The position numbers were made by a program, and so were the translations under genes. Positions 4,967-49,826 of a stretch of DNA of 64,000 nucleotides are shown here, in pieces (positions within the stretch are counted from its first letter, which is position 1; each line of letters begins with the position of its first letter). The notes below the pieces were generated by a model, which made no database searches, was not told where the DNA came from, and saw only the letters and a list, made by a program, of their open reading frames with translations. The stretch is from Panorpa germanica (taxonomy: Eukaryota; Arthropoda; Insecta; Mecoptera; Panorpidae): positions 16,802,001-16,866,000 of the forward strand of contig OY783205.1 of NCBI GenBank assembly GCA_963678705.1, written 5' to 3'.

Positions 4967-4995
4967 GATTTTTAAATAAATTTTATTTAAAAATC
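4967..4995. repeat. Perfect short palindrome next to the 3' end of the microexon gene
   Basis: Two 14-nt arms (GATTTTTAAATAAA and its complement) flank one T. The palindrome carries an AATAAA hexamer on each strand, the minus-strand one at 4982-4987. It lies about 115 nt downstream of the terminal-exon stop codon at 5109, a fitting place for 3'-end formation of the minus-strand gene. The link to polyadenylation is inference. Confidence 0.6.
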
Positions 4996-5108
4996 AACTG
5001 TTACATTATCAATTTAGAATTTAAGAATTTACAAAAACATATTCGAAAATTGAATCTTAAATAATTACGACAATGTATAAATATGAACAATTGCAATCTT
5101 CCTGTGTA

Positions 5109-5143
5109 TTACGTATAATTTGGAGGATGACATCTGGCAGAAA
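5109..5143 (-). CDS. Terminal exon of the microexon gene
   Basis: A good acceptor (tttttgtttcag, minus strand) precedes 5143. In the shared phase the exon completes one codon, reads [10 protein letters not shown] and stops at 5109-5111. A minus-strand AATAAA follows at 4982-4987. The other two frames are also open for a while, so the phase is chosen from the upstream exons rather than from this one alone. Confidence 0.5.
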
Positions 5144-8100
5144 CTGAAACAAAAATAATATTATTAGAACAAGCACACAAAAACAAACATTTAAATCATT
5201 TTCTTTTTAAGCAGTTACGAGTATATTCCCATTTACATTCGCATAATAACAGTTTCAGTCTATTCAATCACATTATAATGTCTTTGCCACTCTTCTAGCT
5301 TCATGGGCGCTATATATGAATTGAATTGGATTGAAATGAAATTACAAACTGTTAGTTTCACCGCAATGTCCATTTCTTCAGCTCTCATGAGATATAAATG
5401 CGTTCTATATAAATTATTGCAGTCATTTTCGCATCTGAGGACTTTTCGTGAGAATTTATTACAAAATTGTGAATCGTTCAATATTAACCAACTTTTATTT
5501 TGTATAATATATATATATTTTATTGTAGCAATGTTTAGCATTGCTAATTTCTTAGAATAAATGCTTTTATTCGCTTAAGAATTATATTTCCAGAACACGT
5601 TCATCCATTTTGGAACGAAACGTTTTGCTACATAACCTACAAATCTTAAACTAACCCGTTGTTCTTAAACAGACTAACTTAAAACTAAAGGGATAGTTAG
5701 ATTTACCTTAGTAGAAATATCGAGCTCCTAACGGCGCCAATAGGACGATGAGGTTGTTAACGCAGACAAGAGAAACCTCTGTAAAAGAAATTGTGTTTTC
5801 GTTATTAAAAAAACAAAGAATGTCTGCAATTGAGTTGTACACCATATATGAATTCTTATATATTGCTGTAGACATATACAATTCCGTGTACGTCATTCTA
5901 CATTATGAAAATCTACACGTAATGCATTTTTCATGTTTTGTTACATGGAGCAACTGTCAAAAGTACGTCTGTTTACTTTGAAAACAAAAAACGTCATTCT
6001 AGTCCTTTTAATCATTACGTCATATAACAATACTAGATTTTTGACGCCATTACTCTACCTGCCTCCTTTTGTCCAGATATGGCATATTTATACTATGAGT
6101 TTGTCAAGTCAACTGTTTTTATAGCTGTCAAGCAGTCGGCTACCTTATTAGCCAAAAGAAACGAATATTGGAAGTACATAGATGTTTTTCTTAGCTGACA
6201 TACGATATCAACTGTATCTAGTGACAATTTCTTTACACGCCGGACGAGTTTATTTCAGTTTAAAATACGTATACAACAATAAATAACCTTGATTACTTAT
6301 GACGCACTGTGTGCCGAGAGTAGCGACGTATGACGCCAAAAATCCGAATCAAATTTCAATCCAAACGAAAAATATTCATATATGTTACAGTAAAAATTCA
6401 AAATATTCAAAGATAAAAAGGCTCAATACTTACTGCTGCTTCCAGTAGTTTCTTCTTCTTCCTTAGGCACGGGATAATCTGAATTTAGTTTAACCAAAGA
6501 CAAAACAAATCGTTATTAGATTTTAAATAAATATTAACTATAAATAATACGGTGGACGGTGTCTACGCTTCAATGATGTTGACAGGAGAACGACTTACTT
6601 TCTGAGAGTGAGACGAAATGTTTATCAAAATGTGACATTTTTATACAATTGTTTATTTGACTTAAAGCGGTACTAACCACCTGTTTCACAGTAATAGTAT
6701 TGGTTGGGAACAAACAATTTGTAAAATAATGTGGCTTAAGTAGGATAATATTGTAATTAAACGAAAGAAAGAACCATCCACATGAACACAGAAAAAGGAA
6801 CTTACAACCTGGAGCTATGTATAAAATATAATAAGTGTCAAGTCATTTTAAGTGTAATCGGATACACAATCCTGGAAACGATATCCTGAGATTGAAAATA
6901 AAATACCAAAGAATATATTTTGAATCATTGAACAAGAACTTACCATCATCTTCCCTTTCTATGTGAAACGAAATTTTATGATTAAAATAAGATTTGTTTG
7001 TTTTAAGCAGGTTAGATGACCGTGCACCTTTGGTAAATGAGAGGCAATTTTTAAAGTAAAACTATTTAAGTGCTATAAAGATTCATCGCTATTGATGTTG
7101 TATGACGAAATACTGAGAATAAAATGAATAATTTTCAATAGAACGGGATTAAAATAGATTAATATTGTTACTATTTTTAACGGTGTGCATGCAAACAGAA
7201 ACACTAAGTATTGAGTACTTATAATCAATCAATAGTAGAAAACAATGTATTTATTACGTCCAATGTGAAAACCGCGAACAATTTTGAACCAATTTTTGTC
7301 TTTCAAGATGAATTCTTCTAATATACATACTGATGATTTTAGAGTTATTTATTATTAAATAATTTAATCGTTGAAACGTACGACTGTTGCTAAAGAATAG
7401 ACTTCTACAAAATAAGAAAACACTAACGGATCATATCTCCAAGTATTCAACTTCAATTAGTGGTCGCTGTAGTTGTTATAGATACTTTTCTTTTGTATTG
7501 GATTTTTAATTACTATTTCCTATACAGAATTTAACACTTACTACCTGTAATGTTGAAACCAATTAGAAGAATATTACTTTCTTAGATAGCGGACAACACT
7601 ACTGCTTAATTGTACTAAACAACCAACCCTTGAAACTACAGGGTTAGTTCTCAATTGAACTCGAGGTCCGACATTCTGTATATGTAATTTCAAGATTTTG
7701 AAGAAATTACTTTCTTTTGGCAAATGAAGAGCTAACTTAATAAAGGATTTGCATGAAACCACAACTTTTAAGGAGACTTCGCCATACTTTTAAATTACAA
7801 TGCCACTTCGCGTTGGTGTGAAACTTCTTTCGACGGCACTGCACACAGGCACATGAACCGAACCATGTGTCCAATAATCCTAAAATAGAATGGATTGCAT
7901 TTGTTTTCTCTCGTTCCATGTATTTCTACCCTTCCGCTGCTTTCCAATCGCAGGAACAAATTTTGTTAACATCTCCCTTTTTACAACAAAATTTGTTTTC
8001 GATGTCAAGGCAAGTTCTAGTGTCAGTGGCATTGGTATTGCTACAGCGAGTCTCTGTTTACAGCAGCGTCGTTTTTAGTTAATCTTTTATGACATTTTCA

Positions 8101-11100
8101 CATTACAAATTGTATTCAAGTTAAACATTGATATAAACTTACGTGCTACTATTGGTGGTGCTGGCGCTACATAAGCAAATAAACAAAGTTGTTAACACGA
8201 GTACATGAAAAAATTAATTCAGATGCACATGTGTATAATGAGAATTCAAAAAGGTGCAGTGGCATACAACTGAATAGAATACTATAGGAGAATTTTTTTA
8301 TATTTTGAGAAGAAAATCATAATTAAAAAATTTTCCTATGATTGGAAAATTATTATCGATTTAGAGAACGTTACATCAGAGAATTAATCTTCCAATTTTA
8401 TGGCAATAACATCTAATTGATCAGTTTACCGTACCGTTTTGTACTTTGTACTGTTAAAAATAATTTATTTTAAATTTAAAATATTATTTTGTTAAAGTCG
8501 GTAAGTAAAATTATCCGGAGTCGTAAATTTTTTTACCGACTCCCTGGTTATTTTTGATAATTTACACAAAACATTTATAATTGTTGCGTGACTTGAAAGA
8601 GACGTCGGTGCTAATTTTTGCATAAGAGTTTATAGGAGTCAGCTAAGTGTAAAAAATTGAATAAAACAAAAAATATAAATGACACTCGTTTACTTAGTTG
8701 CTGTAAAGATGAATCCCAAGACAACGAGAATCCAAAGTGGTGAGATAATAATTAAATTAGTGACAACCTTACATTTTGTATTTTATTTATTCGTAAGATA
8801 TATTTAAAATCTCTTCAGAATACCTAATGTGGGAAGAGGTAAAGAAAAACAACTTGAGAAGATTTGAGAGCGATAAGGTGGGAGGAAAAAATGAAGAACG
8901 CAGCCCGCGGACTGGAGGAAGTGATAAGTGAACATATTAAAATTGGAAAAAATTATTACGAAGATAGAATGATATTGGCGGTGGAGGAAGGAAAAGAGGT
9001 ACGGAATCTGATAAAGAAAATAGGTGGTGTAGAGGTCCAACAACATTAAAGGAGGAAGAGGATAAATGAAGCAAAGCACTAAAAGAATGTAGCAATACCT
9101 GAAAAAAACAGGGAGGTAATGAAAAGAAAATAATCGCGAGGTTTAGACTAGGGAATAAATAAAGGGGTACTGCACTGTATGTAGGGTGATGCTGTATAAT
9201 TATGATGTGTGCCAAGGTATGACGTGTAGGGAGAAGTTGGGTAGAAGGAGAAAACGAAATGGATGATTGAAGTTAAGAGTAAGTAAAGGGTAATTTATTC
9301 ACAGGAAGATGAAGCACGATATTAAACTGATAAACGAAGAATATTTTCTATGTTTTTTCTAATTAGAAAGTAGATCAATGGAGTTTTGTAGGGTTTAGCT
9401 TGGAACGGCTAAGAAACTAACGCACTGCGCTAAAACTTTTACCGTAAAACAGTAATGAACTTCCTATGGATTTAATTGTTTTGTAGAAAGAGTAATTGAA
9501 GTAATCACTGCACAGTGCATCCGAAGTGCGTTTACTGCACTGACTACTAATGCATTTACGTCACATAAAGGTCTACTTACGGTCTATGGTACAAATCGAT
9601 ATATTACGTATTTGATATTTTTTACTCAAATAACAAATTAAGCAACTATAATTATTAACAGAATATAAATTTTCTCAATTTCAAGTAAATTTCTCTTATT
9701 TTTACTTATTTTCAATCATTATTGTGTTTAGTATTTATGTTTTCTGTCTTCCCCTATTTGTTATTCTTCAACACGTTAACTGTGCATTTGATATCTTCGT
9801 AAAGAGGAGTCTACTTGGGGAATGGTTCGTTTGTTGAACCAAGGAGGCAATTCATATACAAAGTAAACTTAAAAGTCTAATCTTAAAAAATGATGGTAGT
9901 TGAAGGAGAGGTAGTTAAGAAGAGTAGTAAGAGAATGGTAGTAGTAAGAGGAAAGTAACTCATGCATCGTAGTTTTGTAAAACTTACAATCTTTTTTAAA
10001 CATATTTGTATTAAATTATAGTACTCTAATAATTTTGTGTCGTTTGTAGTATATTTTAATATTTAATTAACCCAAGATTCGTGCAGATTGGTTTAAAACT
10101 TACTGCCTGTATTTAGAAAAAAACAATTCAATTGTTTAGTGTGACAATGTCAAGGTCCGTTTGTCATGTGAATATAACGTTACCATGTGTGATAATCCTA
10201 TCCTGCTTGGGATAATTCTATCCTATGATATCCTACTTAAAAAATGGCGAGAAATTTATGTGAAAAACTTTGCAAACATAGTTCCCATGTAGGTATTAAT
10301 TTCAAAATAAATAGAAAAAATTTCTTGTCTAGCACGTGTTATTCCAAAAACAGTTGCTAATGATAGAAAGGAGAATAAATTAATAAAAGGGAAGTTTAAA
10401 TCCTTTAAATATCAGCAACTCATAACTTCAATTACGGGTAGTTCTTCAGGAAATGGCATTACGTCTCACAGTACATGTTAATTACCAGTTTCATCCCTTA
10501 GTAAATAACTTTTTATTCTTCTTATTATATGTCTTAACAGTAATTTTGTCTTTATCAGTTGACGAAACTAAGATGACGTAAGTAAATACACACCGTCTGT
10601 TGTAGTAATGGAAAGTAATGCAATTCCAAAGCGTAATTTGTAAAAAAGAAACTGGTTTAGATAGAACATGGTTTTATAATATATTGCAGAGTCTCTCAGA
10701 GGAAATATGAGAATCTGATATTTTTGAGGTCCTAAAATCTTACTAAATAAGATCCGGAGCAACAGCTCCTTTTACATCTTCTTCTGCTCTTTCCTTTGAA
10801 AGGCTCAACAATTATTAAAATCAATAACAGTTAGTTGATTTATTTACTAGCAATAATTTAAGCGATTAAACTTGCCTTGGCCTACACATAAAACGTTAAT
10901 ATAATGATAGGTTGTAAAAATACAAACAAACAAACAAACTGCGATGAAGTTGGCATACTCACAAACTACGCACAAACGATGGAAAATTATTTTATTGTGT
11001 GTTTGTAAAAAAAATGGTGGAAAAAGAATACATAAAATGTGGAAATACAAAATAGAGGTCATTGAGGTAGTAGAAGAATTTAGATATCTGGGTTACACTT

Positions 11101-12070
11101 TTAAAAAGAACAATGGAGAAGATGCTCAGATAAGGGAGGCAGCAAAAAAGGCAGAGTTAGCAATGCGACGGGTGTGGGGATTAGGAGAAAAGGTATTTGG
11201 GGGAGACATACAAAAGAGACAATGGATGTTCGACAGATTAATAACCAGTATGATGGTGTATGGAACAGAGATATAAGGGTGGAAGGAGCAAGAGAAGTTG
11301 GAAATACAGAAGAGATGCAATTAAATGGATACTAGGGCTGGACAGGTGCACGCCAGGTTTACATGGACATGGAGGAGCTAAAAAGGGACAAGATAAGAAT
11401 TAAAGCAGGTGAAAGAGCAATAAAATATGAGGAGAAAATGAGCAGTGCTGAAAGCAAAATTTTAAAAGAAAATAAGGGAGGAGAGCATAAAGAAAGGGGA
11501 AGGGAGGCCCGAAAAAAAAAAGGAGTATTTTGAGAGGAATGGAATGGAGATCGAGGAGACATAGAGAAGGAGAGAAGGAGGCACAAGAGTGGAAGAGTAG
11601 CTAAGGAGAAGGGATAAGGAGATACAGTAACAGGAAAAAATCGAGAAGAGCTATTGTAATTACAATACAAAATATAAAAGGATTTGGGAAAGAAATATAC
11701 CTCAGTACTTAATAGAAAAAGACATATAAAACATAAGGGCAGCAAGGTTTAGATTGGGAAATGAGGAAAAAGGAAACAGATACTGGGAAAGTAGAGAAGA
11801 AAGAATGTGTAGTGTGTGGAACGGATTACGAAACACTGGAGCACATTAAGTTTGATTGTAAGGAAAAAGTAGTGAGCGAAATGAATATTGGGCAGCTCTT
11901 AAAAGAGGGAAGGAAGTGAACAGATGTATGGCAGAAATAACTAGAAGAAGGAAGGCTGAAGCTATTTAAATTTTTTGAAAATGTGCAAAACCATGTACTT
12001 TCTTGTAGATATTAGGAAAATTGAGGTTTTTGTTTTTGGTTCTGGTAGAAGGAAATTATATTATTCCTAT

Positions 12071-12135
<65 letters not shown>

Positions 12136-15100
12136 TATATAAAAAAAAAAAAATAAGATTAAAATGTATTGTATTAAGGCAGAAGAATGTAATGCCGAAA
12201 GGTAAAACATTAAATAAATAAATAATAATAATAGTAAATAAAAATATTTACCACCTGTTTTAGTAACCGTTTTTGGAAAATAAATGAAAGTTACAAATGG
12301 AAATAGGTGAAAGATTCTCCGAATGACAAAAAGTAAAGAAATAAAATAAACAGAAGCATTGAATTGCAACATGTTGCATTAAACGACGATGCTACTTACA
12401 TTCTAGAAGAAAATGACAATAAAAACATGGTAAGTAGAATAGCCTCTGATAATTATAATATGTTCGATGGTGGACACATCAATACATCGCATATAAGTAT
12501 CAATTAATCTAAATAATAATAATAATCGTTATCAAAATCTATGTTCAATTAAAAAAGGTTCATTAATAAAAGATAAATATAGAAAGATAAAGATTAGAAA
12601 AGGTAATTTTACTAATGACAATAACAATTTTTGGTTTACTTACGATTGTCTGCTTTGCGCGTAATTTTTTGATAGTAATAAACATTTGCGTCAGATGGAA
12701 TTAAAATGCTAACTAGTGCGGTGTTTATATTATTCAGTGTTAGGGTTTGGGGTAGTAATGTAAGTTTGGTAAAAAGGTGAAGAACAATATATACTAATTT
12801 TTTTTTTTGTTAATTTAAAAAGATACAGAAATAAAATCATTAATATTAAATACAATAATTTATATTAATTAAAGATATTAATTATTGCAAAATGGTGCAT
12901 ATTAGTAACGCATGAGTTCATAAGTTCAAAATTACATTTAAGGTAAAAACCTTTAATTAAAACTAAGAACAGTGAGTGGGAATAGGGCTTCGCTCAAAAC
13001 ATTTTAAACATTTGTGATTTATTTTTGAATCTTATTCTTTAGCAGTCTTGACTATTCTTATGAATCTTTTAGTTGAAACGGTCGTTACTCGCGTAATTTG
13101 TTGATAGAATCGAGAAACAAACATTTAAATTAATGCCACGTACTGATAACCCATAGATAGCTATGTAGTCAACGACAAGAACATTGCATAACATATTTAA
13201 CCATCAATTAATAAGAAAGGAATTTGTCAACACAATTTCTAACATTTGTGATTTATTTCTGAATCTTATTCTTTAACAGATGTGATTATAGCATACGCTT
13301 TTATTAGAAGACGACGAATCCGAGGTAGGATGTATTGGCTTCATTCATATATCGAAAAGAACATTAACCGCAGATTGTTTGCTGCTGCAAAAGAGTTATC
13401 AGAGAATGATTCAATACTTCAGTTAACACACCGAATGGCTATTGTTCAATAATATGAACAGAAGTGACCGCCGAGTCCGTCGTTTTTAAAAGAATATTAC
13501 GTCTATGCGTCGTGCAGTACGCCTAGAGCTATAACATGCTGCAACCCAGGCTGCATGACGAGTGCTTGCCACTAAGCAAATGTGACGTTGCAGCTCCTTT
13601 GCTTAAATGAAAGCTACAAGAGCAGAGGCGGCCTTAGGGGGTGGCAAGCAGGGCAACCTCCCAGTGCCTCGCATTCTCGCGCAACAACCAAAGTAGAACA
13701 ATTTATTACTATATATGTATTTGAATCTCGCGTCTCGCTCTCTTTAGAAATCCCACTAGAATCACTGCATATATCTTTTTAGGCATTCATGTACCTTAGT
13801 TTATTTGATCAAAGATCTGCCTCCCCGGAGCCTCGCAAAAATCTGCTGCCCGGGGCCTCGCAATAATTAAGGCCGCCCCTGTACAAGAGCTTCTAGCGTA
13901 GAAAGATTTTTGCATATTGCCTACGTCACAATTTACTTTAGGTTATGTAAGAACATAACATTAAATAATGGATTGTGTAAAAATTTAAACAATTATTACT
14001 TCCCTTAAAATACAACTTATAAGAAAGTCGTGACAATTTTCGCCTGCTTTTGACTAGTACCACTACCCAGTAAACAAATAAATAGAAGACCGGACGTCTT
14101 CTGTATAATAACTCAAAACTTTTCACAATAATATTTGTCACATTACAAGTTCAAAGTTTCAGACCTTGCTTGTTTCTGTTTCCAGCTTTGTGGATAAAGC
14201 GTTCAGTGTTTGGAGGATCATTAAGGCGATTCTGATCCCACTTTTATTCGTCTCCTTCTCTTTCACCTACTCAAAAGGGGTAACCTCTTCTCCTGTGAAG
14301 TATAGAAGCGGTAGAAAAGCAGAGGATATCCCCTTCATGTTGCGGATGGTTTAAGTTTATTTGGATCAAAGATTTTGGTCGTATCACAGTCACAGTGAGT
14401 ACCATCAGTGAGGTTCGTAGAATTATTTATATGATGAGTTTACAAAGCGGCATAGCTCAGCGGGTAAGAGACCAGAAACATGAGATTTTTTAGTTTACTT
14501 ACTCTTCTTCTACTCCCGTAATTTGTTGATAGAAACGGGAAACAAAAATTAGAATTAATGACACGTACTGATAGCCCATAGATAACTATGTAGTCAACGA
14601 TAGTAACATTGCATAACATATTTAACCATCAATTAATAAGAAAGGAAATTATCAGCACAATTTCTAAATTTGTGTTTTATTTTTGAATCTTATTTTAAAG
14701 CAATCTTGACTACTCTATCTTACGACTCTTTTAGTTTACTTACGTTCTATAATCGCGTAATTTGTTGATAGAAACAGGAAACAAAAATTTGAATTAATGA
14801 CACGTACTGATAGCCCATAGATAACTATGTAGTCAACGACAGAAACATTGCATAACATATTTAATTATCAATTAATAAGAAAGGAAATTATCAGTACAAT
14901 TTCTAACATTTGTGATTTATTTTTGAATCTTGTTCTTAAGCAATCTTGACTACTCTATCTTGCTAGTCTTTTAGTTTACTTACGTTCTATAATCGCGTAA
15001 TTTGTAGATAGAAACGAAAAACAAAGCGTAGTGTTAATGTCAGTTTATGATATTCAATGGATAACTATTCCGCGAGCACAAGATTTAAATAAGTTTTAAA

Positions 15101-24100: not shown

Positions 24101-27100
24101 TTTCGTTTGAAGGAAGTTTTCCGTTTTCTATCTGAAGTACTGATTTTACTTTGAGTGGGGTTGTCATTAGGTTGTCTAAATGATTAGTTCTAGTGACGTG
24201 TGTTTTAAGGTGTTTAATCGTAGCTATATTCTTATCTGATACTTCTAAGACTTCATATGGTCCTGTGTTTTTTGGTTTACTTTTGGTTTGATTTTTAATT
24301 TTCTTATTTAAATACACTATATCAGTAGGTTTCACTTTTGGTTTAGGAATGTCTTTATTTATACGATTTATAGTTTGTTCTTTCTTCTGTTGTATTTGGT
24401 TTTTAACTTGTTCATATATTTTCGTAGTTCGGTCTCGATGGTTCTGCATGTAAAGATCCATAAGTGTCATATCTTGGTTTAATAGTAAAGGTGATTTAGT
24501 ACATAGATGTCCGTTTATTAGTTCCCGAGGTTTGTACTGGGTGGTGGAATGAGGTGTCTCATTGTATCCTATAAGGGTGTACTTCATAAGTAGTCTTGGG
24601 GGAAGATCGTGTTCTGTTTTCACGATTCTGTACATTTCAAGTAAAGTAGAATGTAGTCTTTCTACAGGGGCGTTACTTTCGTGACGATAGGGTGTAGTTA
24701 TATGCATTTCTATTTTGTGTAGATTTAGTAATTCTTTAATGATGTTATTATTAAATTCTGCACCGCCATCCATGGTTATATGTTTGGGTATGCCATGGTG
24801 GGTGAAATAGGTCAATAGTTTTTCTGTTACTTCTATTGCTGTTCTAGCTATGATGTCATATGCCTGTGCGTATTTGGAAAATAAATCTATTATAGTTAGA
24901 AATTTCTGTCCGTCTACTTCGAAAGTATCAATGTATATTTTTTCAAATGGATTTTCCGGTGTTTCCGTGATGTTGAGTGGTGCTTGTATCGGATGTCGAT
25001 TGTATTTTTGTTGTTTACAAGTGAGACAATTGTTAATATAATTCTCTACTTGCTTTTTCATACCGCTCCAGGTATATCGTTCTTGAATCATTTTTCGTGT
25101 GGTGTCAATGCCTCTATGGTGGGTCTTCCCTTCGTGTATTTGTAGTATAATATAGAGTTGGTCTTCTATTTCAGTTATAATATCAACTCGGTTTAAGCAT
25201 CTTATTATCTTATAACGAATAAATGTTTCAATTTTCAATTTATTATAAATTTCGTATATTTCATTGTCACAGAAAAGGTAGTATGTTATATCTGGGTCAA
25301 GTTTTTCTAACGTGAGGATAAATAGTTCTTGATGTATATGGTCTTGATGTATTTCAAGATGTATTTGTTGTTTGTTGTCTATTTTTCGTATTTTGCTTGT
25401 TGTTTTTCCGAGAGTTTGAGTAATAATTATTTGGTTTTTCTTGGTTTCCAAAGGATCAGTTGTTATGGGTATTCCGGTGTTAGAATCTTCTTGCGAGTGT
25501 ATGGTATCTGTATCGCTTATTTCGATTATTTCTGATTCCTTATTGATTTCTATAGGGTCATTGGGGATCGGTGTTGGTACTGGTGTATTTAGTATATCCG
25601 TTGGTTCATTTTTATTCACAGTTGTTATAGGGGTTTCTGTACGTAGAGTTGTGGGTGTAGGGGTGTTGGTATTTTCCTTAAGTACATCATTTATTTCTGC
25701 GATGAGTTCTTCCCATCTAGTATCAAAGTCAGGATTATTAATAATGCTCACATTATCGTTGTCTAATGCATTTAATTTGATACGGCTTAATGCATCTGCG
25801 TTGGTGTTTTCTAATCCTTTCTTATACTCTATTTTGTAGTCATAATCAGACAATTTGATTTTCCATCTGATTAATTTCATGTTTGGTTCTTTGAGCGAAT
25901 CAAGCCACACCAATGGTTTATGGTCTGTGATCAGGGTAAATTTTCTTCCATATAGATATGGTCTGAAATATTTAGTGGCCCATACTAAAGCTAATAGTTC
26001 TTTTTCTATAGCTGAGTAATTCTGTTCTGATTCGTTTAGAGTTCTGGATGCGTACGCTATTGGTTTATCAGAGCCGGTATTACCTTGTGATAATATACCG
26101 CCTATTGCATAGTTGGATGCATCAGTTGTAAGTTTGAATTCTTTGCTGAAATCAGGGTATTGTAACAGGGGTGCATTGCTCAAGATGTTTTTCATTAGTT
26201 CAAAAGATTTGACAAATTCTTCCGTGTGTGTGATTGTTGTACCTTTCTTCAAATATTTTGTCATAGGTTTGGTTAATTTCGCGAAGTCTTGTATAAATTT
26301 GCGATAGTAACCAACGAGTCCTAAAAATGATTTTATTTCTGTCACTGTTTTTGGTATAGGAAATGTTTTGATTGCATGTACTTTGTTAGGGTTTGGTTTA
26401 ACGCCTTCTGGTGTAACAACGTGTCCCAGAAATTCCGTTTCTTTCTTGAGGAATTCGGATTTATCTATTTGAATCTTAAGATTCGCTTTTCTGAGCCTAT
26501 CAAGTACATTTCTTAGTTTCTCCATGTGTTCTTGTAAGGAGGTGGAATATATAAGTATATCGTCGAGATATACAAGACATGTGTTTGGTACTAGATCTCT
26601 TAGTACATCGTCCATGACCCTTTGAAAAGTGGCTGGGGCGTTTTTGAGTCCAAACGGCATTCTAGTAAACTCGTAGTGACCGTTCTCGACGTTGAATGCT
26701 GTTTTCTTTATGTCTTGTTCATCTACTTCGATCTGGTGGAATCCTGAGTCTAAGTCAAGGGTAGTGAAGTATTGACTTCTACCTAACTTGTCTAAGATTT
26801 CAGAGATGTTCGGGATAGGGTATCTATCATCCACTGTTTTATTATTCAGGTTTCTATAATCGATCACCATTCTAAATTTTTTCTTTTCACTGGCATCGTC
26901 TTTCTTAGGTACGATCCAGACGGGTGAAGACCAGGGTGAATTAGATGGTTTAATTATTTCGTCATTTAATAGTTTTTCAATTTGACTATTAATTTCGTTC
27001 TTATGGACGTAAGGATATCTATAGTTCTTACTATAAATAGGGTCTTCGTTGGTGGTGGTAATCTTGTGTTTGATATGATTCGTGAAGCTGAGTTTTTCAT

Positions 27101-30100
27101 GGTTTTCTCTAAAGAGGTCAGGGTAGTTTTTTAAGAGTTCACATAATTGATGTTTCTCTTCACGATTCATATGTTCATTTCTTATTTGTATCTCATGTGT
27201 TTGTGTGTCGCAAGCATCTTGGAAATAAATAGGTATAATAGCTTTTTCTGTAATCAATTGTTTGTTTTCAAAATCGATTTTTGCTTTTTCTGTATTTAAT
27301 AGATCAGAGCCTATAAGGCCGTCATATTTTTTGATAAATCTAAATAAATACATTTTACATTTATTTTCCGAATTAAATACTGGAAATGTTTGTACATGAG
27401 CTACTTGGTTGTGTTTCGTAGTTCCATGTGCAGTTTTGATGGTGAAAATTTCATTTTCTATCATTTCTGGTATGGTGGTGTATGCTAGTTTTGGATTTAT
27501 AATTGTTCTGTTGCTGCCTGTATCTAATAAGAGTTTTATATTTAGTACTGGATCTATTATGTAAGGCAGAGAGTCATGTTGAATGTTATTTAGTACTATA
27601 TGTTCTCTGTGGGTCCCAGGTGTTCGAGAAAATCCTGAGTATTTTCCTCTTGGTTTTCATATGCATAATATTCTTCATTTTCTTCAACTCTTTCATATTC
27701 TTGCTCTTCTTCGAACTCTCCTTCTATGTTATTTAGTTCTTCGGCTACATAGTTTAAGCCTGGTGTACTAAAAGTTGGCTTCCAGTTGTTGGTTGGTCTG
27801 ACCGTGGAAGTTGTATCCATAGGAGTCCAATGTTTTCGAATGGGCATTTGGGGTTTTTTGTTCCAAACATTCGTTTGCTTTGTTTGTTGAGATTGAGGCT
27901 TTTTAAAAGGTTGATGGTTCAGCTCTTTGGTTAGAGTAGGGTGGTCTATTTTGTTAAAATGGGTTATAATTATTTTGGTTGGGATACCATGATTTACTTT
28001 GAGATGTTTGTTGTGGTGGATTATAATTATTTTGAGGGTGGTATGATGGTCTATATTGTGGTCTTTGGGGTGGAGGTCTCTGAGGGTAAAACTGTTTAGG
28101 TATATCACCCATCAGTTTCAGTTGTTGAATTCTATTTGTTTTTAGAGTGTCTTCTCTCATGATTATTTTTAGAATCTCCTCCATTTTTGTAATATTCTGA
28201 ACTCTGAGTTGTGATCCTAATGGTTCATTAAGACCAGTCAAAAAGGCTTCTAGTGTTAAGTTATCATACAATTTTAATTTATGAGTCTTCACTAGGGGGT
28301 CTAATCCTCCAATTTGTGCTACATTATATAAATCATTTCTGATTTTGTTGCATTTGTCGTAAAAGATCATTGCAGTATCTCCTCTTTGCCGGAGTAACAT
28401 CAGTTCTCTTGTTAATGTCGTTTCCGATTTGTTTTCATTGTAGTTCGATATTAGTATAGCTCTTAAGTCATCCCAAGTATGGGTGTTTCTATACTCTATT
28501 AATGCGTTTGCTTTTCCAACAATTTTACTTTTTATTGCAAGTAATAGTAACGCGTTGTCTGCAGCGTTTGCAGGAATATCCGGTAAAGCAAATTTCTTAA
28601 TCACGTTATCACAACTTTGTAAGAACGTTGATAGTGAATTGTCACCGTTGAATTCTTTAATGTACGATATAAATGTGTTATACGCCATTATAATGTATAT
28701 TTTTTCTCAATATTCTTATATTTATGTATTATTTAATTATCAGAGGGAATAATAAAAGAAGGGATACTTGAAAATGGTACTCACATTGAGATCATTACAG
28801 CCAGTTCTAGAAGCATGATGATTCCAGGTCGTCTAGTTGTATGTCTTGTGCTCCCGTGTTCCTTTTTTATTATTTCACTCACTCACTTATTTATTTATTT
28901 TCACTTTAACTATTTATTAAGTTTAACTGTATTATTGTGTAGGTTTTTTCGAATTATTAAGTTAATCCATTAAAATGGAAAAATTTACAGCGATTTGTAA
29001 TTTCTTAATATCCGTACGACTGCGCCAATTAACTTTTGATTTACTGAAGTTAATAAAAAAAACAATTTAATTAACTTTAAACAATTATTTTATTGATATA
29101 TTTATTACAAGACCTTCTGGCAATTCAGAGGTTGGAGTAAGACTGGTGGTCCGAGATTACATGGTTACTTATATACTAACTTAATTGTAATTCTATCCCA
29201 GGATGTTTAGATTAGATAAGGGGATATGTTGGGTGGCCTTTAGAGCTGGCACGCGTGGTAACAGTAGCTGTCAAACAATGTATCACGCACCGGCGCCTAC
29301 TACTTAAAACACCGGTCTACTTAAAATATTGGTTTGTATATATGCTATGTATCAGAGTAGGCGCTGTATGTGAAAAAAGATTTTCCCGCTTTTCTGTTGA
29401 AAATTTTCCTGAATTCCTGAATTTTCTTAGCTATAAACCTCACGGAGCCTGAGACCTTTCCAACGAATGCAAAACCGTGGAAATCGGTTCGTGCGTTCTG
29501 GAGTTATAACGTCAGGAAGGAAAACCCGACTTATTTTTATATAGTAGATATAAATATAAAAATTATTATTGCGCGGAAGACCGGCGCTGTCGAAAATCAA
29601 ATTGGTACGCATGCCCAGTAACGAATTCTTAAAATGGCAGATAGATTTGCTTAGTCTGGCATCGAATAGGTCTCGTTCTATTTTTTGACGCTGGTTTTTA
29701 TCACCGTTAATAGTTTTTAAATATTTATTTTAGACAATTTGTGGATAAAAATAATAATTATTAATTATGTTATATGTGGACATAAATGTATTTAATTATA
29801 TAAATAATAATTTGCTGGTAATTTTTTAATTCTCTTCTTAAAAACATGCTTCAAATAATATTACACAAATGCAAGAGTAAAGGACCGAATAATTTGGGTA
29901 CAACTTTTCTTCGAACGATTTACGATCGGCGCCGGTGATGAAAATTTATTATTTTTTCTTTATTGTTTTAATAGAAAATGAAGAACAAATGATCTTTGTT
30001 ATTAAAATATCCGCTAATGAAAAATACGATAATATTTTGTTATAACATAATTAGCGGAAATATGGAATAACCAAATTCAGGCTCAAAGTTTGGCTTAAAT

Positions 30101-32325
30101 ATTATTTATTTACAGATTTTTTACTGTTGACTTACTGGTGGTACAAGGTTCGTCTGTGTCCATTCAAATATATTAATAGTAACACAAAGTAAACAAACGA
30201 ATTAATGTTATTGATCATATTAAACGTTTAACAGAGAAAAAAAAACAGGTAAGAAATTTCTCTTTAAAATGAGTGTATACTTAGATCAAATTTATCTCGT
30301 GAATCGAATTACTCTTACTTACATATTGCGACTGTTTAAGAATTTAATGAGAAATAGTATATTAAAATTTGTTTTAATTATTTAAATTGTGGCACCACTT
30401 ATCAGAGCCGCATCTTACCCACTGAAAAACAATTTAAGAAATTGCAAATAAGTTTCTGAGATAACAATGTTATTATTCAGTTAAAAGTCCAAAGACAATT
30501 ACTGGGTTTAAAAAAGAATTACTTCTTGGAAAAGTAAAAACAAAGAAGATTTGTCACTCTTTGTCTGAGGATGGTACGTACTTCAGGAAGATACGTGTAG
30601 CTGTTGAGCGAAAGTATCAAGTATTACATACAGAATAACGGAAAGATGCAGAAATTCTCTATACAAGGATTTGTAAAGAAGTGTTTAAATTACATCCAGA
30701 ATGTGTTCTTGCTCCAAATTTTTCATAAGTGAAGACCTGTTTTTCAGATACGACAGATTTCAGATACGATATCCTTGTGTTGAAATAAAGCATTTTCTTT
30801 AAAAAGCGTAAAAAGTTATTTAGATATTAAGGATATTAAAAGACTTTTATTGCAATCAAGAATCAAGTACACCAATTTAGCAATTTATTTGATTAATTTT
30901 CCGTTTTAATGCCATATTATCCACATATAAATTCTCCTCCTGGCTTTGTTACTAATCTATGGATTTTTGTATTTTGATATTGTATAGAATTCTGTTCGTT
31001 ACCATAGAATGTATTTCAATTACTTTTTTAAAACATTTAAAAAAATACAAAATGAAGCATTCTTACTTTCTACAAAAATAACGTTTCATTAAAGTTTTAA
31101 TCTTTAAGACAACTGTCACGCGGGCCAACGACCTTGAACTTTGAACTTACCGGCTATGCAATAAATTATTTATATTTTATGTTACATCGTTATATTTATT
31201 AAGTTTTATATCGCAATAACAATGATACTGCCCAGAAAAGTTGGATATACATACTATCAGAGATGTGCGTTTTTCAAATACATATACTCAAAATGCAAAT
31301 ACAAAATAGTAAATACCTATTTTCTATTTTGTATTTAAATATCTTTTAAGAGTATAGAATTTTATATTTTATTTGAAAACTTTTACAAACCTATTTCTTA
31401 TTTGGAAAATACAAAATACTTTTTTCATTTTTGTTACTTCAGAGTATTAATCAGTAAATATTATTTTTTAATTTAAAGTTAAAACCCCTCCAATATTAGC
31501 ACCATCTATGATCTAAAAGTATCTACACAATTGTCTTAATACCCCCCATACTACCCCTACATGCGACATCCAACCTATATATATTTTCATTCATAAGTTG
31601 AACATTATTTAGACATGAGTATTTTTTAAACATATTATGCGACATAAACATGCTACACTAATAAAACCCCTACTTTTGCTATTTTTTTAAATTCTAGGTA
31701 GTATTTTTATGAAACAAAACTGTTTCAAAACAAAGTCGATCTTTATCAACGAGAATTCTCATAATTATTAGAAAAAAATAACATTTATATTAATAACATA
31801 AAGAGTATTCTATTTTCTCAAAAGTATTTTTAAAATACGTATTTTGTATTTAAATACTAACATGAAATTTATTTTGTATTTGAAATAGAAAAATAACGAG
31901 GTATTTGCATTTTGTATTTAAATGCTTTTGAAAAGCATTTGTGCACATCTCTGCATACTATATTCAAGATACACATTACATGGTATATTGCATATGCTAT
32001 GTATATGCTGTTGTGATGTAGTTTGCACTGAATTCAATAATAACACAGTTCCATTCCTTACTTAAGCGTCCCCTTTCCATAATTTAGTGACGGAGCTGCC
32101 CTTCTATTTTTACTTCCCATTATGCTGATTATTATCGTACGCTGACTCTGATTTACACAATTTCGAAACTACGACGTTAAAACGGCATTGCAGTGAAACG
32201 GCAATTAGCGTTACACACTCCGGACCATTGCTAACAATCAAACTATTTATACATGTCAAACACTGGGCACTTCAGGCACAGTACAGTACGTAAATAACTA
32301 ATTGCCTATGAAAATGTCTTACCAT
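5109..32325 (-). CDS. Candidate microexon-chain gene (5' end not found)
   Basis: On the minus strand a series of very short segments sits between YAG acceptors and GTAAGT/A-like donors. Three-nt exons: 32323 ATG, 31151 CCG, 31067 AAA, 30419 TGG, 14984 and 14744 AAC, 12400 AAT, 12252 GTG, 10963 TTT (GTGAGT donor), 10104 GCA, 9581 ACC, 7542 GTA, 6806 GTT, 6678 GTG (weak GTTAGT donor), 6599 AAA. Longer exons of 9, 18, 6, 24, 15 and 45 nt are listed separately. All internal lengths are multiples of three. Only one phase (two bases, whole codons, one base) keeps every longer exon open, and splicing in that phase gives about 65 codons ending in TAA at 5109. The product is rich in Pro, Glu, Asp and Cys and I do not recognise it. 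Leaving out the 6678 exon while keeping both neighbours would create a stop. The upstream exon and promoter were not found. Transposons fill the introns. No transcript evidence is available to me. Confidence 0.55.
6434..6478 (-). CDS. 45-nt exon of the microexon gene (acidic segment)
   Basis: It is bounded by cag at 6479-6481 and a perfect GTAAGT donor at 6433-6428. In the two-base phase it reads [14 protein letters not shown]. The one-base phase hits a stop and the zero phase is excluded by the 24-nt exon upstream. This is the longest internal exon and the best anchor for the reading frame. Confidence 0.6.
6599..6808 (-). CDS. Cluster of three 3-nt exons (GTT, GTG, AAA)
   Basis: 6806-6808 GTT lies between ccag and GTAAGT; 6678-6680 GTG between aaacag and GTTAGT (a poor donor); 6599-6601 AAA between tctcag and GTAAGT. 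Joined in order they carry the frame from the 15-nt exon into the 45-nt exon as Gly-Cys-Glu-Asn. GTT joined directly to AAA would make a TAA stop, so either the weak GTG exon is used or GTT and AAA are mutually exclusive. Confidence 0.5.
6944..6958 (-). CDS. 15-nt exon of the microexon gene
   Basis: A pyrimidine-rich acceptor (tttcgtttcacatag) lies upstream and a GTAAGT donor at 6943-6938. In the shared phase it reads R-E-D-D between split codons. The one-base phase gives a stop. Confidence 0.6.
7542..7544 (-). CDS. 3-nt exon GTA
   Basis: It lies between cattacag and GTAAGTG on the minus strand. Because the exon itself begins with GT, this could also be a recursive splice point. Length and position fit the chain. 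Confidence 0.45.
8143..8166 (-). CDS. 24-nt exon of the microexon gene (Pro/Ala-rich)
   Basis: Acceptor tatgtag at 8167-8169 and donor GTAAGT at 8142-8137. In the shared phase it reads P-A-P-P-I-V-A. The zero phase meets a stop, which helps fix the phase of the gene. An internal cag would allow a shorter 18-nt version that also keeps the frame. Confidence 0.6.
8810..9160 (+). mobile_element. LINE C-terminal relic 1
   Basis: Broken plus-strand frames read [16 protein letters not shown] near 8830 and [11 protein letters not shown] near 9128. The second phrase recurs as [15 protein letters not shown] in the better-preserved relic ending near 11990. It lies in an intron of the microexon gene, in the opposite orientation. 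Many frameshifts; no intact ORF. Confidence 0.5.
9581..10965 (-). CDS. 3-nt exons ACC, GCA and TTT (plus weaker candidates)
   Basis: 9581-9583 ACC lies between accatag and GTAAGT; 10104-10106 GCA between atacag and GTAAGT; 10963-10965 TTT between gcgtag and GTGAGT. Weaker sites in the same interval are 10594-10596 ACG (GTGTGT donor), 9988-9990 ATT (AAG acceptor without a pyrimidine tract) and an 18-nt candidate at 10776-10793 (AAG acceptor, GTAAAA donor). I would not rely on the weaker ones. Confidence 0.45.
11035..11990 (+). mobile_element. LINE C-terminal relic 2 (RT tail and zinc-knuckle end)
   Basis: The plus-strand frame at 11060-11275 reads [13 protein letters not shown], then [34 protein letters not shown]. 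This is the segment after the RT core in a LINE family widespread in insects (YLGY...VWG.GE..F..D..RR..FD.L...YG.EI). After frameshifts it continues as [17 protein letters not shown] near 11362 and as [20 protein letters not shown] at about 11745-11800, followed by a Cys/His-containing tail (CSVC, then an H and a C). The 3' end runs toward the (TA)n tract at 12073. Non-functional. Confidence 0.7.
12073..12132. repeat. (TA)n microsatellite
   Basis: About 60 nt of alternating T and A, just 3' of the LINE relic. It may have grown from the A/T-rich tail of that element. Confidence 0.9.
12252..12649 (-). CDS. Exons ACAATC (6 nt), AAT and GTG (3 nt)
   Basis: 12644-12649 ACAATC has acceptor aaagcag and donor GTAAGT. 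12400-12402 AAT has a strong pyrimidine-rich acceptor (cattttcttctag) and donor GTAAGT. 12252-12254 GTG has acceptor aaaacag and donor GTAAAT. In the shared phase they contribute His-Asn-Gln-Cys across the junctions. The 6-nt exon sits in a diverged copy of the repeat cassette seen at 14486-15045. Confidence 0.5.
12990..13285. repeat. Diverged copy of the 240-bp exon-bearing cassette
   Basis: Similar along its length to the tandem units at 14486-15045 (shared phrases such as gcgtaatttgttgatag, cattgcataacatattta and caattaataagaaagg). The splice segment has decayed here (gtcgttac with no acceptor at the right spacing), so this copy probably contributes no exon. Confidence 0.75.
13623..13881. 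mobile_element. hAT-type MITE with 8-bp target duplication
   Basis: The termini are CAGAGGCGGCCTTA (left) and the complement of CAGGGGCGGCCTTA (right). The flanks are TACAAGAG at 13615-13622 and 13882-13889, an exact 8-bp duplication as made by hAT transposases. It is 259 bp long with no transposase. A one-ended fragment of the same family lies at about 52095-52150. Confidence 0.9.
14486..15045. repeat. Tandem 240-bp repeat carrying 3-nt exons
   Basis: Three head-to-tail units (the third truncated) with a period of 240-241 bp, judged by the acttac donors at 14497, 14738 and 14978. In units two and three the minus strand reads gattatag, AAC, GTAAGT, giving 3-nt exons at 14744-14746 and 14984-14986. 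In unit one the equivalent interval is 7 nt and would break the frame. Related copies are at 12630-12700 and 12990-13285. Each extra active unit would add one in-frame codon's worth of bases. Confidence 0.75.
15360..15590 (-). pseudogene. Unrecognised decayed coding stretch
   Basis: One minus-strand frame is open for about 75 codons apart from two adjacent TAA codons near 15490. It reads [20 protein letters not shown] before them and [20 protein letters not shown] after. I do not recognise the family. It lies between the tandem cassette and the Helitron 3' end and may be a transposon relic. Confidence 0.3.
15760..15777 (-). terminator. Helitron 3' hairpin (copy 1)
   Basis: A 6-bp stem GGCGAA/TTCGCC around a 6-nt loop ends 8 nt before the CTAG terminus. 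Such a hairpin close to the CTRR end is the normal signal for ending rolling-circle transfer. The same hairpin is at 62091-62108 in copy 2. Confidence 0.85.
16001..16321 (-). pseudogene. Helitron helicase, C-terminal piece (copy 1)
   Basis: Reads [39 protein letters not shown] and [10 protein letters not shown], the last motifs of the PIF1-like SF1 helicase of Helitrons. Upstream it is cut at 16321 by the DNA-transposon insertion. By comparison with copy 2, 284 bp of helicase sequence (62653-62936 there) is missing at this junction, so the event was an insertion plus a deletion. Confidence 0.9.
16418..16478. repeat. Perfect 29-bp inverted repeat with 3-nt loop
   Basis: Arms 16418-16446 and 16450-16478 are exact reverse complements around GAA; the core is TAGGCCTACC / GGTAGGCCTA. 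It lies directly upstream of the first likely transposase Met at 16480. The perfect match stands out against the decay of the neighbouring gene. It could be a recently formed snap-back end, or an element end kept by gene conversion. Confidence 0.9.
16480..18042 (+). pseudogene. tnp2/CMC-like transposase, frameshifted
   Basis: Part one (to 17434) reads [20 protein letters not shown], then [32 protein letters not shown] with CCERCTIEG, and [15 protein letters not shown] followed by [16 protein letters not shown]. Part two (from 17431, next frame) begins IHLPDDV and continues [20 protein letters not shown]. This order matches animal transposase-domain proteins related to tnp2 with a DUF4218-like tail. 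The frame switches within the conserved H-S-L-I-H-L motif near 17425, so a small indel split the gene. Family assignment is from memory of motifs; the superfamily name is uncertain. Confidence 0.7.
18310..18571. repeat. Array of CCAAG/CTTGG words at the transposon's right side
   Basis: Short words such as GGGCCAGGCTTG, GGTATCCAAG and GCTTGGGCCAGGC recur many times in about 250 bp, in both orientations. Subterminal repeat arrays of this kind are typical transposase-binding regions of CACTA/CMC-like elements. No such array is obvious at the left end. Confidence 0.65.
18572..18950 (-). pseudogene. Helitron helicase, middle piece (copy 1)
   Basis: Reads [20 protein letters not shown] (Walker B region and following motif), then TNMRVQ and [20 protein letters not shown]. 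The Walker A part is absent. The Rep frame ends at PFAATLMY and this piece begins within [12 protein letters not shown], so an internal deletion joined Rep to the middle of the helicase out of frame. Confidence 0.85.
18953..20341 (-). pseudogene. Helitron Rep (HUH nuclease) domain, copy 1
   Basis: The motifs run in the Helitron order: [59 protein letters not shown] and [12 protein letters not shown], the last with the two catalytic tyrosines. The HUH motif normally reads H-x-H; here the second His codon is TAT (Tyr) at 19715-19717, while copy 2 still has CAT at 63868-63870. The N-terminal 15 or so codons before GVSTNK look non-coding and end in a 3'-splice-like tttgcattttcag (about 20285), so a small intron may precede this exon. 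Single-stranded DNA nicking and joining would be abolished. Confidence 0.9.
20345..21465 (-). pseudogene. Helitron N-terminal region, copy 1 (two frames)
   Basis: Starts [13 protein letters not shown] at 21465. A C-x2-C ... C-C finger ([23 protein letters not shown]) is followed by [16 protein letters not shown], the usual Helitron-like N-terminal domain. Near 20880 the frame shifts into [15 protein letters not shown] and [20 protein letters not shown], ending at 20345. A low-complexity His/Thr-rich stretch at about 20900-20990 lies just before the shift and may have caused it. Non-coding Helitron sequence continues to 21728 and, beyond the retroelement, at 29264-29548. Confidence 0.85.
21733..21969 (-). 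repeat. 3' LTR
   Basis: 237 bp, apparently identical to the 5' LTR. Reads TGTTACCACG at its start and AAGTTAATT at its end in element orientation. Contains a TATATAAG box and two AATAAA signals. Confidence 0.95.
21991..23694 (-). CDS. env: Envelope glycoprotein (insect errantivirus type)
   Basis: The first Met gives 513 residues (from 23532), but the frame stays open upstream to about 23694 and a candidate 3' splice site (ttgttacag) ends at 23669, so the protein is probably made from a spliced mRNA. The upstream part includes a GLYPIQRG phrase typical of the N-terminus of this family. R-N-K-R at residues 56-59 is a furin-type cleavage site, followed by a hydrophobic/glycine-containing segment expected for a fusion peptide. 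Several N-x-S/T sites are present. A membrane anchor spans roughly residues 464-484, followed by a short basic, then acidic, tail. Related to baculovirus F proteins. No frameshift or stop is visible. Confidence 0.9.
23700..27600 (-). CDS. pol: Pol polyprotein: protease, RT, RNase H, integrase
   Basis: Pol overlaps the end of gag in the -1 frame (gag stop at 27596), as expected for frameshift expression. Protease reads LLLDTGSN about 20 residues before the Met at 27464. RT shows [26 protein letters not shown] and the catalytic [11 protein letters not shown]; RNase H has [11 protein letters not shown] and ITDHKPL; integrase has an H-H...C-x2-C finger (CLTCKQQ) and the D,D-35-E triad in [16 protein letters not shown] and APVERLHS, then a GPYEV segment. 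About 1300 residues in all, uninterrupted to the stop at 23700. The tail after GPY (about 150 residues) is longer than the integrase core needs and I do not assign it. Confidence 0.95.
27596..28688 (-). pseudogene. gag: Gag, interrupted
   Basis: The first frame runs from 28688 ([16 protein letters not shown]) through a capsid-like segment to a Pro/Gln/Tyr-rich tract and stops at 27954. Downstream coding sense resumes in another frame (about 27905 to 27596), ending in an acidic Glu/Tyr-rich tail. So there is a premature stop plus a frame change in the Pro-rich region. The site of change is near a T-run/A-run (ccttttaaaaag, about 27900). I see no CCHC knuckle. Whether this is a mutation that disables the copy, or some form of recoding, cannot be decided from one copy; mutation is the simpler view. 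Confidence 0.75.
29017..29027 (-). other. Primer-binding site, tRNA-Ser type
   Basis: The minus strand reads TGGCGCAGTCG at the inner edge of the 5' LTR, complementary to a tRNA ending CGACTGCG-CCA, which is insect tRNA-Ser. The following bases fit less well. Confidence 0.75.
29027..29263 (-). repeat. 5' LTR with promoter and polyadenylation signals
   Basis: TATATAAG lies at 29175-29168 (minus), and AATAAA at 29106-29101 and 29093-29088. The short length and layout agree with a TATA-driven gypsy-family LTR. No coding content. Confidence 0.95.
29264..29548 (-). mobile_element. Helitron 5' terminal segment
   Basis: The minus strand starts TCTACTATATAAAAATAAG and continues with GGGTTTTCCTTCCTGACG, a well-known arthropod Helitron 5' end. 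It is separated from the Rep coding part by the retroelement. Confidence 0.9.
30136..30153 (-). CDS. 18-nt exon of the microexon gene
   Basis: Acceptor gacacag at 30154-30156 and donor GTAAGT at 30135-30130. In the shared phase it reads E-P-C-T-T. All three frames are open, so it is consistent with the common phase but does not prove it. Confidence 0.5.
30323..30331 (-). CDS. 9-nt exon of the microexon gene
   Basis: TCGCAATAT between cttaaacag and GTAAGTAAG. It contributes Val-Ala-Ile-Tyr across its junctions in the shared phase. Confidence 0.5.
30419..32325 (-). CDS. 3-nt exons TGG, AAA, CCG and ATG
   Basis: 30419-30421 TGG lies between a strong acceptor (aattgtttttcag) and GTAAGA. 31067-31069 AAA lies between ttatttttgtag and GTAAGA. 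31151-31153 CCG lies between attgcatag and GTAAGT. 32323-32325 ATG lies between atgcacag and GTAAGA. These are the most 5' exons I can find; in the shared phase they give Ala-Glu-Met plus split codons. The hAT MITE at 31258-31953 sits in the intron between CCG and ATG. Confidence 0.5.
31258..31953. mobile_element. hAT-type MITE with 8-bp target duplication
   Basis: Termini are CAGAGATGTGC and its exact complement, flanked by CATACTAT at 31250-31257 and 31954-31961. The interior is full of AAATAC/TATTTTGTATTT repeats close to both ends and lacks a transposase. Part of the interior (about 31490-31570) is similar, inverted, to 37090-37180. Confidence 0.9.
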
Positions 32326-32329
32326 CTGT

Positions 32330-33180: not shown

Positions 33181-33182
33181 AA

Positions 33183-35367: not shown

Positions 35368-35369
35368 GA

Positions 35370-49800: not shown

Positions 49801-49826
49801 ATATTGTTATGAATTTTGTTTTTCAG
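46804..49826. other. Expanded second intron of the LRR pseudogene
   Basis: Pieces similar to the 381-bp intron of the intact gene (for example 47865-47960) are interspersed with extra AT-rich sequence. 46900-47010 and 47190-47650 resemble 50770-51060, so at least one dispersed repeat has inserted. No coding content recognised. Confidence 0.5.

Follow-up and report, generated by a model that had tools for sequence, protein, structure and literature searches.

Can one gene carry a long series of exons of only three nucleotides each? The question is raised by a stretch of 64,000 nucleotides of Panorpa germanica DNA (the window; chromosome 2, hereafter C2, from position 16,802,001), for which a preliminary description drawn from the letters had proposed a chain of at least fifteen such micro-exons on the minus strand. 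The window was analyzed for acceptor and donor motifs, and the genome (464,208,970 bases) was searched for copies. Mitochondrial ND2 of this genome shares 94% identity with that of Panorpa communis and 88-90% with that of three other Panorpa species among those listed. The explanation that we hold with good confidence is a family of protein-coding micro-exon genes with ordinary GT-AG introns, often placed after every codon's worth of sequence, which would have grown as arrays and would encode a mucin-like product.

On the minus strand of the whole 64 kb, the motif YAG-N3-GTAAG occurs 13 times, every one within 6.6-32.3 kb, compared with two occurrences on the plus strand. Cutting the region at 5109-32325 clips the thirteenth site and leaves 12 on the minus strand, where 100 dinucleotide shuffles gave 0.41 on average and never more than 2. 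When the analysis was restricted to the non-inserted 12.3 kb, a YAG-to-GTAAG spacing of 3 was found 12 times (P 2.6e-13; P 6.5e-12 with one tandem duplicate removed), the other 120 spacings between 0 and 120 averaging 0.49 hits with a maximum of 3. The preliminary description had counted 12 sites in about 13 kb of non-inserted sequence and expected less than one by chance; both figures hold, and the two-strand scan with shuffled control that it proposed came out in its favor. In a wider non-inserted region (30000-32990 and 5109-15100, minus strand), the nearest YAG lies exactly 3 nt 5' of the donor for 13 of 26 GTAAG donors, as compared to 0/34 for minus-strand donors outside this region and 2/49 for those of the plus strand (P 3.6e-8). 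No YAG-N3-GTAAG was found on the minus strand between 35 and 62 kb; the earlier statement that this part is free of sites is correct for GTAAG donors and fails for GTGAG donors, two of which form 3-nt sites there (61741 and 45082). Chance or base composition as the source of the 3-nt sites is ruled out by the strand, spacing and shuffle counts.

Features lying outside the selection of the sites, namely the AG-free zone of the acceptor, its pyrimidine content and donor position 6, gave a concordant picture. Each of the 11 stand-alone 3-nt acceptors lacks AG over at least 20 nt upstream, compared with 124/272 other YAGs (P 5e-5); the pyrimidine fraction before them is 0.60 versus 0.51 (P 0.02), and T is found at donor position 6 in 8/11 versus 38/98 cases (P 0.03). 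The GC content is 44% in the exons and 31% in the region. Most of these sites have unrelated flanks, yet share the YAG-3-GTAAG layout, the strand and the AG-free zone. Two of the 13 lie within longer candidate exons (24 nt and 9 nt); for the 9-nt candidate (6814-6806) the paralogs favor the 3-nt form, the outer acceptor of the 9-nt form being missing in L008, L010 and L011. The predicted chain is given below from 5' to 3' on the minus strand, L029 being the paralog at 16.43 Mb.

32323..32325, minus: 3-nt exon ATG, donor GTAAGA; exon and splice sites same in L029
31151..31153, minus: 3-nt exon CCG, donor GTAAGT; same in L029
31067..31069, minus: 3-nt exon AAA, donor GTAAGA; same in L029
30419..30421, minus: 3-nt exon TGG, donor GTAAGA; acceptor is AAG in L029
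30323..30331, minus: 9-nt exon TCGCAATAT; CCGCAACAC in L029
30136..30153, minus: 18-nt exon; 12 nt in L029
14984..14986, minus: 3-nt exon AAC, within a tandem unit of about 240 bp
14744..14746, minus: 3-nt exon AAC, in the second tandem unit
14488..14728, minus: third tandem unit, exon apparently broken (YAG and donor 7 nt apart); 6 nt in L029
12990..13290, minus: fourth unit, displaced, without its donor in the window; L029 has YAG/6 nt/GTAAGTAA
12644..12649, minus: 6-nt exon ACAATC, homologous to the tandem units
12400..12402, minus: 3-nt exon AAT, from splice-site scan and paralogs
10963..10965, minus: doubtful 3-nt exon TTT, GTGAGT donor; site kept in aligned paralogs
10104..10106, minus: 3-nt exon GCA; GCG, GTG or GAA in paralogs
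9581..9583, minus: 3-nt exon ACC; paralogs have TAC, distant ones TGC at the corresponding site
8143..8166, minus: 24-nt exon of hypervariable sequence; paralogs have 21 or 18 nt
7542..7544, minus: 3-nt exon GTA, from splice-site scan and paralogs
6944..6958, minus: 15-nt exon; 12 nt in some paralogs
6806..6808, minus: 3-nt exon GTT; paralogs have TTT, distant ones CTT at the corresponding site
6678..6680, minus: possible 3-nt exon GTG, unusual donor GTTAGT, within a conserved block
6599..6601, minus: 3-nt exon AAA; CAT in distant paralogs
6434..6478, minus: 45-nt exon, readable in phase 1; 48 nt in one paralog
5707..5778, minus: 72-nt exon with a conserved in-phase TAA (5710-5708) and a predicted hydrophobic C-terminal tail
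5109..5143, minus: last exon, 3'UTR or alternative C-terminus
4982..4987, minus: AATAAA, present in 8/8 aligned rows including the window

The candidate exons of 6, 9, 15, 18, 24 and 45 nt were located where the preliminary description had put them, the acceptor of the 45-nt exon scoring below the limit of one splice-site scan, and the AATAAA that it had noticed near the gene end is the one retained in every aligned row. Two other places need correction: the GTGAG site at 10965 lies inside a stretch (ORF 10911-11276, plus strand) that looks like a reverse-transcriptase fragment, for which a Pfam search returned no match, and the donor at 14502 lies 7 nt from its YAG, a distance that breaks the rule of multiples of 3. 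Position 32325 is not the start of the chain for the family, additional sites being present upstream in the 16.43-Mb paralog, which also contains an extra, duplicated unit of the 18-nt exon with a shifted acceptor and a 9-nt exon. The possible GTG exon at 6678-6680 has the donor GTGGGT in L021 and L022, and its acceptor CAG is changed in L023. Near 8715 of the window (minus strand), CAA is found with CTAAGTAA where L021 has, at 2992, the 3-nt site CGA with GTAAGTAA; this is apparently an exon lost through a donor change.

The chain is interrupted in its middle by a block of mobile elements, as follows.

15749..29568: mobile-element block inserted in the gene, missing from the 16.43-Mb paralog
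16358-17434, plus: open reading frame in the block, looks transposon-derived, without Pfam match
18.4-21.5 kb: Helitron in the block
21733-29263, minus: gypsy-like element with pol and an env-like frame

At 16.43 Mb, the homologues of positions 29,569 and 15,748 follow each other within about 60 bp. The 237-bp end repeats of the gypsy-like element (21733-21969 and 29027-29263) are 100% identical, which argues for a recent insertion into the gene; together with the missing block at 16.43 Mb, it points to the window gene as a recently invaded copy. In three other copies (16.43, 17.35 and 17.39 Mb) the matched parts extend over some 14-15 kb, as against some 28-30 kb in the window itself and in two further copies (16.60 and 17.29 Mb). 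A dispersed repeat occupies 31.2-31.9 kb of the window.

With the 3' part of the gene (window 5000-10700) as query, at least 65 matching places were found in the genome, 40 of the 366 candidates having been scored. A match over the last exon was found at no fewer than 24 places, 22 on C2 and 2 on contig C15, the window included. In the paralogs, YAG and GTAAGT are mostly kept and the exon letters altered, and the exon lengths vary between 24, 21 and 18 nt, between 15 and 12 nt, and between 45 and 48 nt. Distant paralogs were scanned without any use of the window positions. The counts of YAG-N3-GTRAG on the sense and antisense strands were 11 and 1 in L021, 8 and 0 in L022, and 12 and 0 in L023; upstream of the 16.43-Mb copy, they were 8 and 1 (L030) and 4 and 0 (L032). 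Nine family stretches, 76.6 kb in all, contained 48 YAG-N3-GTAAG on the sense strand and 3 on the antisense strand, compared with 3 in 13 non-family loci (56.3 kb, both strands), 8 of which lie around the dispersed repeat. Stretches belonging to the L021 copy were poor in GTRAG sites (L028, 1 sense; L031, 0 sense and 2 antisense), and L050, farther upstream of that copy, had 0 sense and 1 antisense. Taken together with the composition, strand and acceptor context of the window sites, these counts support a long series of predicted 3-nt exons in one gene, as first proposed, the paralogs doing so most strongly.

Two other features were observed in the distant copies. L023 contains a tandem duplication of about 5.8 kb (1-2400 and 5770-8170), which doubles its micro-exon run. 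A further repeated micro-exon unit, with candidates of 18, 9 and 6 nt, is found upstream of a distant paralog (L031 at 4903, 7247, 8482 and 8193, and L028 at 202).

The divergence among copies was highest in the exons. Against four independent copies, substitutions amounted to 55/566 in exons (9.7%) and 1557/27316 in introns (5.7%; P 1.7e-4). The 30-nt flanks had 86/2208, GTAAGT 7/276 and YAG 4/138. These counts, and the variable positions given next, leave aside near-identical or duplicate copies (L001, L002, L006 and L007; L004 and L016, which are like L003), as well as L018-L023, other loci and alignments below 250 bp. Variable positions reached 34/148 in the micro-exons together and 1137/12487 elsewhere (P 5e-7), exon alleles being related and their counts not independent. 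The excess comes from the longer micro-exons (28/112, P 8e-7); with 6/36 variable positions, the 3-nt exons alone are not significantly faster than introns (P 0.14). Exon indels comprise ten entries, five of 3 nt, four of 6 nt and one of 5 nt, two events being entered twice; the 5-nt entry comes from aligning the 18-nt exon to the second, duplicated unit of L029. In introns and flanks, 74/282 indels are multiples of 3. An Rfam search returned nothing at the gathering threshold.

Three exons of the window, at 14986, 14746 and 12649, belong to units that are homologous to one another. This unit is present in 11 tandem copies in L033 (C2:3160101-3169100), with a spacing of 178-212 bp (units of about 205 bp), each consisting of an intron and a 3-nt exon. 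The exons read AAC CTA CCC CTA CTA CCG AAC AAC AGG CCC CCG, and three have GTGAGT donors. Compared in pairs, the units have a diversity of 0.67 in the three exon columns, as against 0.107 over the 40 nt preceding the exon and 0.079 over the 30 nt following it. When 10 of the units were aligned, the exon ranked first in variability among 201 three-column windows. The motif AAATTACGNGNNTAG-NNN-GTRAGTAA has 197 matches in the genome, the backward control having 0, and the positions among the matches listed are on C2 and C15. In 39 matches the first exon letter is not C, in 29 C is followed by a letter other than C, and in 20 CC is followed by a letter other than A, which leaves 109 CCA units; the 88 non-CCA units comprise 23 different triplets. 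At least 61 CCA units with a period of mostly 178 bp form a homogeneous array at C2:3646889-3657949, and perhaps beyond. Selection had been deduced from the near identity of the units 14986 and 14746; this argument was dropped, as the identity may mark a duplication breakpoint.

It could be proposed that these repeats are satellite-like or mobile DNA with splice-like motifs, from which nothing is spliced. The homogeneous CCA array certainly has the look of a satellite, and mobile elements crowd the locus. We nevertheless consider this explanation unlikely: window sites with unrelated flanks share layout, strand and AG-free zone, the longer exons change by multiples of 3, and in the array the triplet is the most variable part of a nearly fixed motif. 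Under the micro-exon gene reading, we lean, with less confidence than for that reading itself, towards tandem intron-plus-codon units writing a protein repeat domain, in which satellite-type unequal exchange would add, delete or homogenise single residues and selection would act on three letters. Such exchange would range from a mixed array of 11 units to more than 60 CCA units, the latter reading as poly-Thr in the phase considered most likely. Leaving out the 109 CCA units, the junctions in phase 1 (57 pairs from the 88 non-CCA units) encode Thr 14, Ser 12, Pro 8, Glu 7, Ala 6, Gln 3 and few others, with no stop, and phase 2 has 4 stops over the 57 pairs; the corresponding shuffle tests were not significant (P 0.09 for 57 pairs, P 0.26 for 39 units).

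Is the chain read in one frame? The preliminary description had one phase open down to a terminal stop, and this is not what the window chain gives: its best phase contains a single stop, a TAA at the 6806|6601 junction, which is also found in near paralogs. Adding the GTG exon 6680-6678 would remove it; in the 16.43-Mb chain that includes this exon, phase 1 runs through without a stop and phases 0 and 2 do not. The frame argument from the window alone is weak, since 24% of random chains do as well as its best phase. We examined 26 exon alleles of at least 9 nt, picked by hand; stops per codons were 9/162 in phase 0, 0/136 in phase 1 and 8/136 in phase 2. Among the exons left aside in this choice were the 9-nt form at 6814, the last exon, the 72-nt exon and a number of long candidates of low confidence, of which those with GTAAGT donors entered a second, unselected set. 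This set was built by taking, in 11 family stretches, each GTAAGT donor whose nearest YAG lies at a multiple of 3 between 9 and 75 nt. Its 16 sense exons had 6, 2 and 6 stops in phases 0, 1 and 2 (119, 103 and 103 codons), as compared to 8, 5 and 12 (105, 96 and 96 codons) for 9 exons of the antisense control, in which phase 1 is the lowest as well; with GTRAG donors, 32 exons had 14, 11 and 17 stops (291, 259 and 259 codons). The exons most likely share phase 1, each starting at codon position 2 and thereby splitting codons. The shared phase and split codons of the earlier description are thus borne out by the picked alleles and less clearly by the unselected set, where two stops fall in that phase. 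Skipping exons is not neutral for the frame at codon level: when 13074 random subsets of the exons in the window chain were read, phase 1 was open in 7551, phase 0 in 6536 and phase 2 in 2445.

The coding end was placed differently from the earlier description, in which the last exon closed the gene and the 72-nt exon had been missed. In phase 1, four sequences of this exon conform to (V/A)xxxxxNNLIV...YF(Y/N) followed by a conserved stop, with 3/288 differences among near copies. In distant copies it reads VSAPRLNNLIVLSAALGLLYFN, VSGLRLNNLIVLSAALGLLYFN and APALRLNNLIVVSAALGLLYFY, each ending in a stop directly before aag|gtaaat; phase 2, too, is open in these copies. The usual end of the predicted coding sequence lies more probably at the conserved TAA (5710-5708). 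Conservation is equal in the last exon (5143 onward) and carries on into the 3'UTR; this exon may be untranslated or, should the 72-nt exon be skipped, may provide another coding end. At the other end, no convincing phase-1 candidate for a first exon or for an N-terminal signal peptide, the latter a feature of bicycle genes, was found in the window or in the paralogs (including L030-L033 and L050). A signal-peptide exon at 30218-30136 (phase 2) was rejected, because phase 2 later meets stops and because T-rich stretches before acceptors yield many such hits.

Long fly introns contain recursive splice sites, or ratchet points, in which an acceptor abuts a strong donor, so that the intron is removed stepwise and a zero-length exon is left. 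The 3-nt sites could be relatives of these, in a mainly non-coding or regulatory transcript where the three nucleotides would have no coding meaning. Acceptor and donor do nearly coincide, GTAAGT is strong, removal would necessarily be sequential and the frame evidence is modest. This proposal is nonetheless quite improbable in our judgment. Three nucleotides remain at the Panorpa sites, and the zero-length form YAG|GTAAG is not enriched, with 0 observed on the minus strand of 5109-32325 and 0.39 expected. Coding is further suggested by the multiples of 3, the conserved tail exon with its stop, and exons that evolve faster than introns.

Families of genes made of many small exons have been described in other animals, among them the schistosome micro-exon genes (MEGs), which have secreted products. 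Bicycle and megacycle genes occur in aphids, phylloxerans and scale insects (PMC9168663, PMC13041983). Bicycle genes have many small internal exons, nearly all starting from codon position 2, and form a large and fast-evolving family in which some members are without the CYC motif (PMC9168663); in megacycle, internal tandem duplication has generated more than 100 microexons (PMC9168663, PMC13041983). The Panorpa family resembles them by its small predicted exons, fast evolution, large size and internal tandem duplication, and differs by its host, a member of the Mecoptera, by 3 nt as the commonest exon size, by tandem units of an intron and one codon, and by a predicted hydrophobic C-terminal tail. 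In Schistosoma mansoni, MEGs consist of 10 to 20 short exons, most with a length divisible by 3, separated by introns of 0.1-5 kb, with exon sizes given as 6-81 bp in the text (3-81 in the abstract) and mostly 15 bp (PMC10526429). The Panorpa chain likewise consists of short predicted exons of multiples of 3 between longer introns, with 3 nt instead of 15 bp as the commonest size and with arrays of 3-nt exons, of which the sections of PMC10526429 used here describe none for MEGs. It is very improbable that the family is a bicycle member, or a trematode-type MEG, in the Mecoptera: the most likely exon phase is that of bicycle genes (PMC9168663) and the plan that of MEGs (PMC10526429), but the exon size mode and the insect order differ, the CYC motif was sought in the translated window and 16.43-Mb chains and not found, and the authors of PMC9168663 report that three outgroups yielded no putative homologs. 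Microexons of 3 nt are known as single exons of otherwise ordinary genes, in mouse Ncam and Drosophila TnT (PMC8042270); those predicted in Panorpa would likewise add one residue each, and differ by coming in series. In the open-licence literature, no report of a chain of 3-nt exons was found, nor, among the matches listed, any paper treating scorpionflies together with microexons.

The mechanism that we propose for the micro-exon gene family starts from the strong GTAAGT donors, which would leave the three exon letters free to vary. Single exons could be gained, lost or altered without a shift in frame, because their lengths are multiples of 3 and their phase is most likely 1. The size of the spliceosome makes simultaneous recognition across 3 nt implausible; acceptor and donor 3 nt apart can hardly be bound together, and we infer that introns are removed stepwise. 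The three nucleotides would first join the upstream exon, and the same spot would then act as donor for the next intron, in a process akin to recursive splicing that leaves one codon's worth behind. Chains would grow by tandem duplication of the intron-plus-codon unit (about 178-240 bp) and erode by loss of splice sites. The product is predicted to be rich in Thr, Ser and Pro, mucin-like, with a short hydrophobic tail that is possibly a GPI-anchor signal; this combination resembles GPI-anchored or mucin-like surface proteins. Selection would be diversifying along the micro-exons and purifying on the tail. The preliminary description had suggested that such a series could generate combinatorial protein diversity; the diversity seen in the sequence is instead evolutionary, gene copies varying, both internally and from one to another, in the letters and the number of their exons.

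If the reading of tandem intron-plus-codon units is true, what is repeated in such a gene is the intron, and the exon is carried along as its payload. If confirmed in RNA, the family would represent a new route by which proteins grow and diversify by single residues. Exons so short strain present models of exon recognition. The family would offer a test bed for the handling of 3-nt exons by the spliceosome, for sequential versus concerted intron removal, and for residue-by-residue protein evolution through tandem DNA turnover. Standard annotation would likely miss such genes; for P. germanica, the genome note (PMC11464959) announces an annotation that draws on existing RNA-Seq. Published work on Panorpidae deals with nuptial feeding and with the salivary glands, so that expression could be sought in saliva, among other places.

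Several neighboring features of the window were also recorded. An LRR gene lies upstream of the micro-exon gene at 32987-35466 (minus strand), with an F-box/LRR match in a PDB search; its 34-35.4 kb part gave weak Pfam LRR matches and no protein match in a large database, and it was rejected as part of the chain, of which it is a neighbor. A diverged, inverted copy of this gene is found in pieces at 43735-50820 (plus strand), with blocks 75.7-88% identical. A repeat of about 5 kb is present in the same orientation at 1-4611 and 51057-56173, with blocks 86-93% identical and decayed frames that look like a retroelement. At 43936-44508 (minus strand) lies a mariner-type transposase fragment, with up to 89% identity to database proteins over part of its length. 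Elsewhere in the genome, nuclear copies of the mitochondrial COX1 gene were observed on C16, C1, C3, C21, C5 and others.
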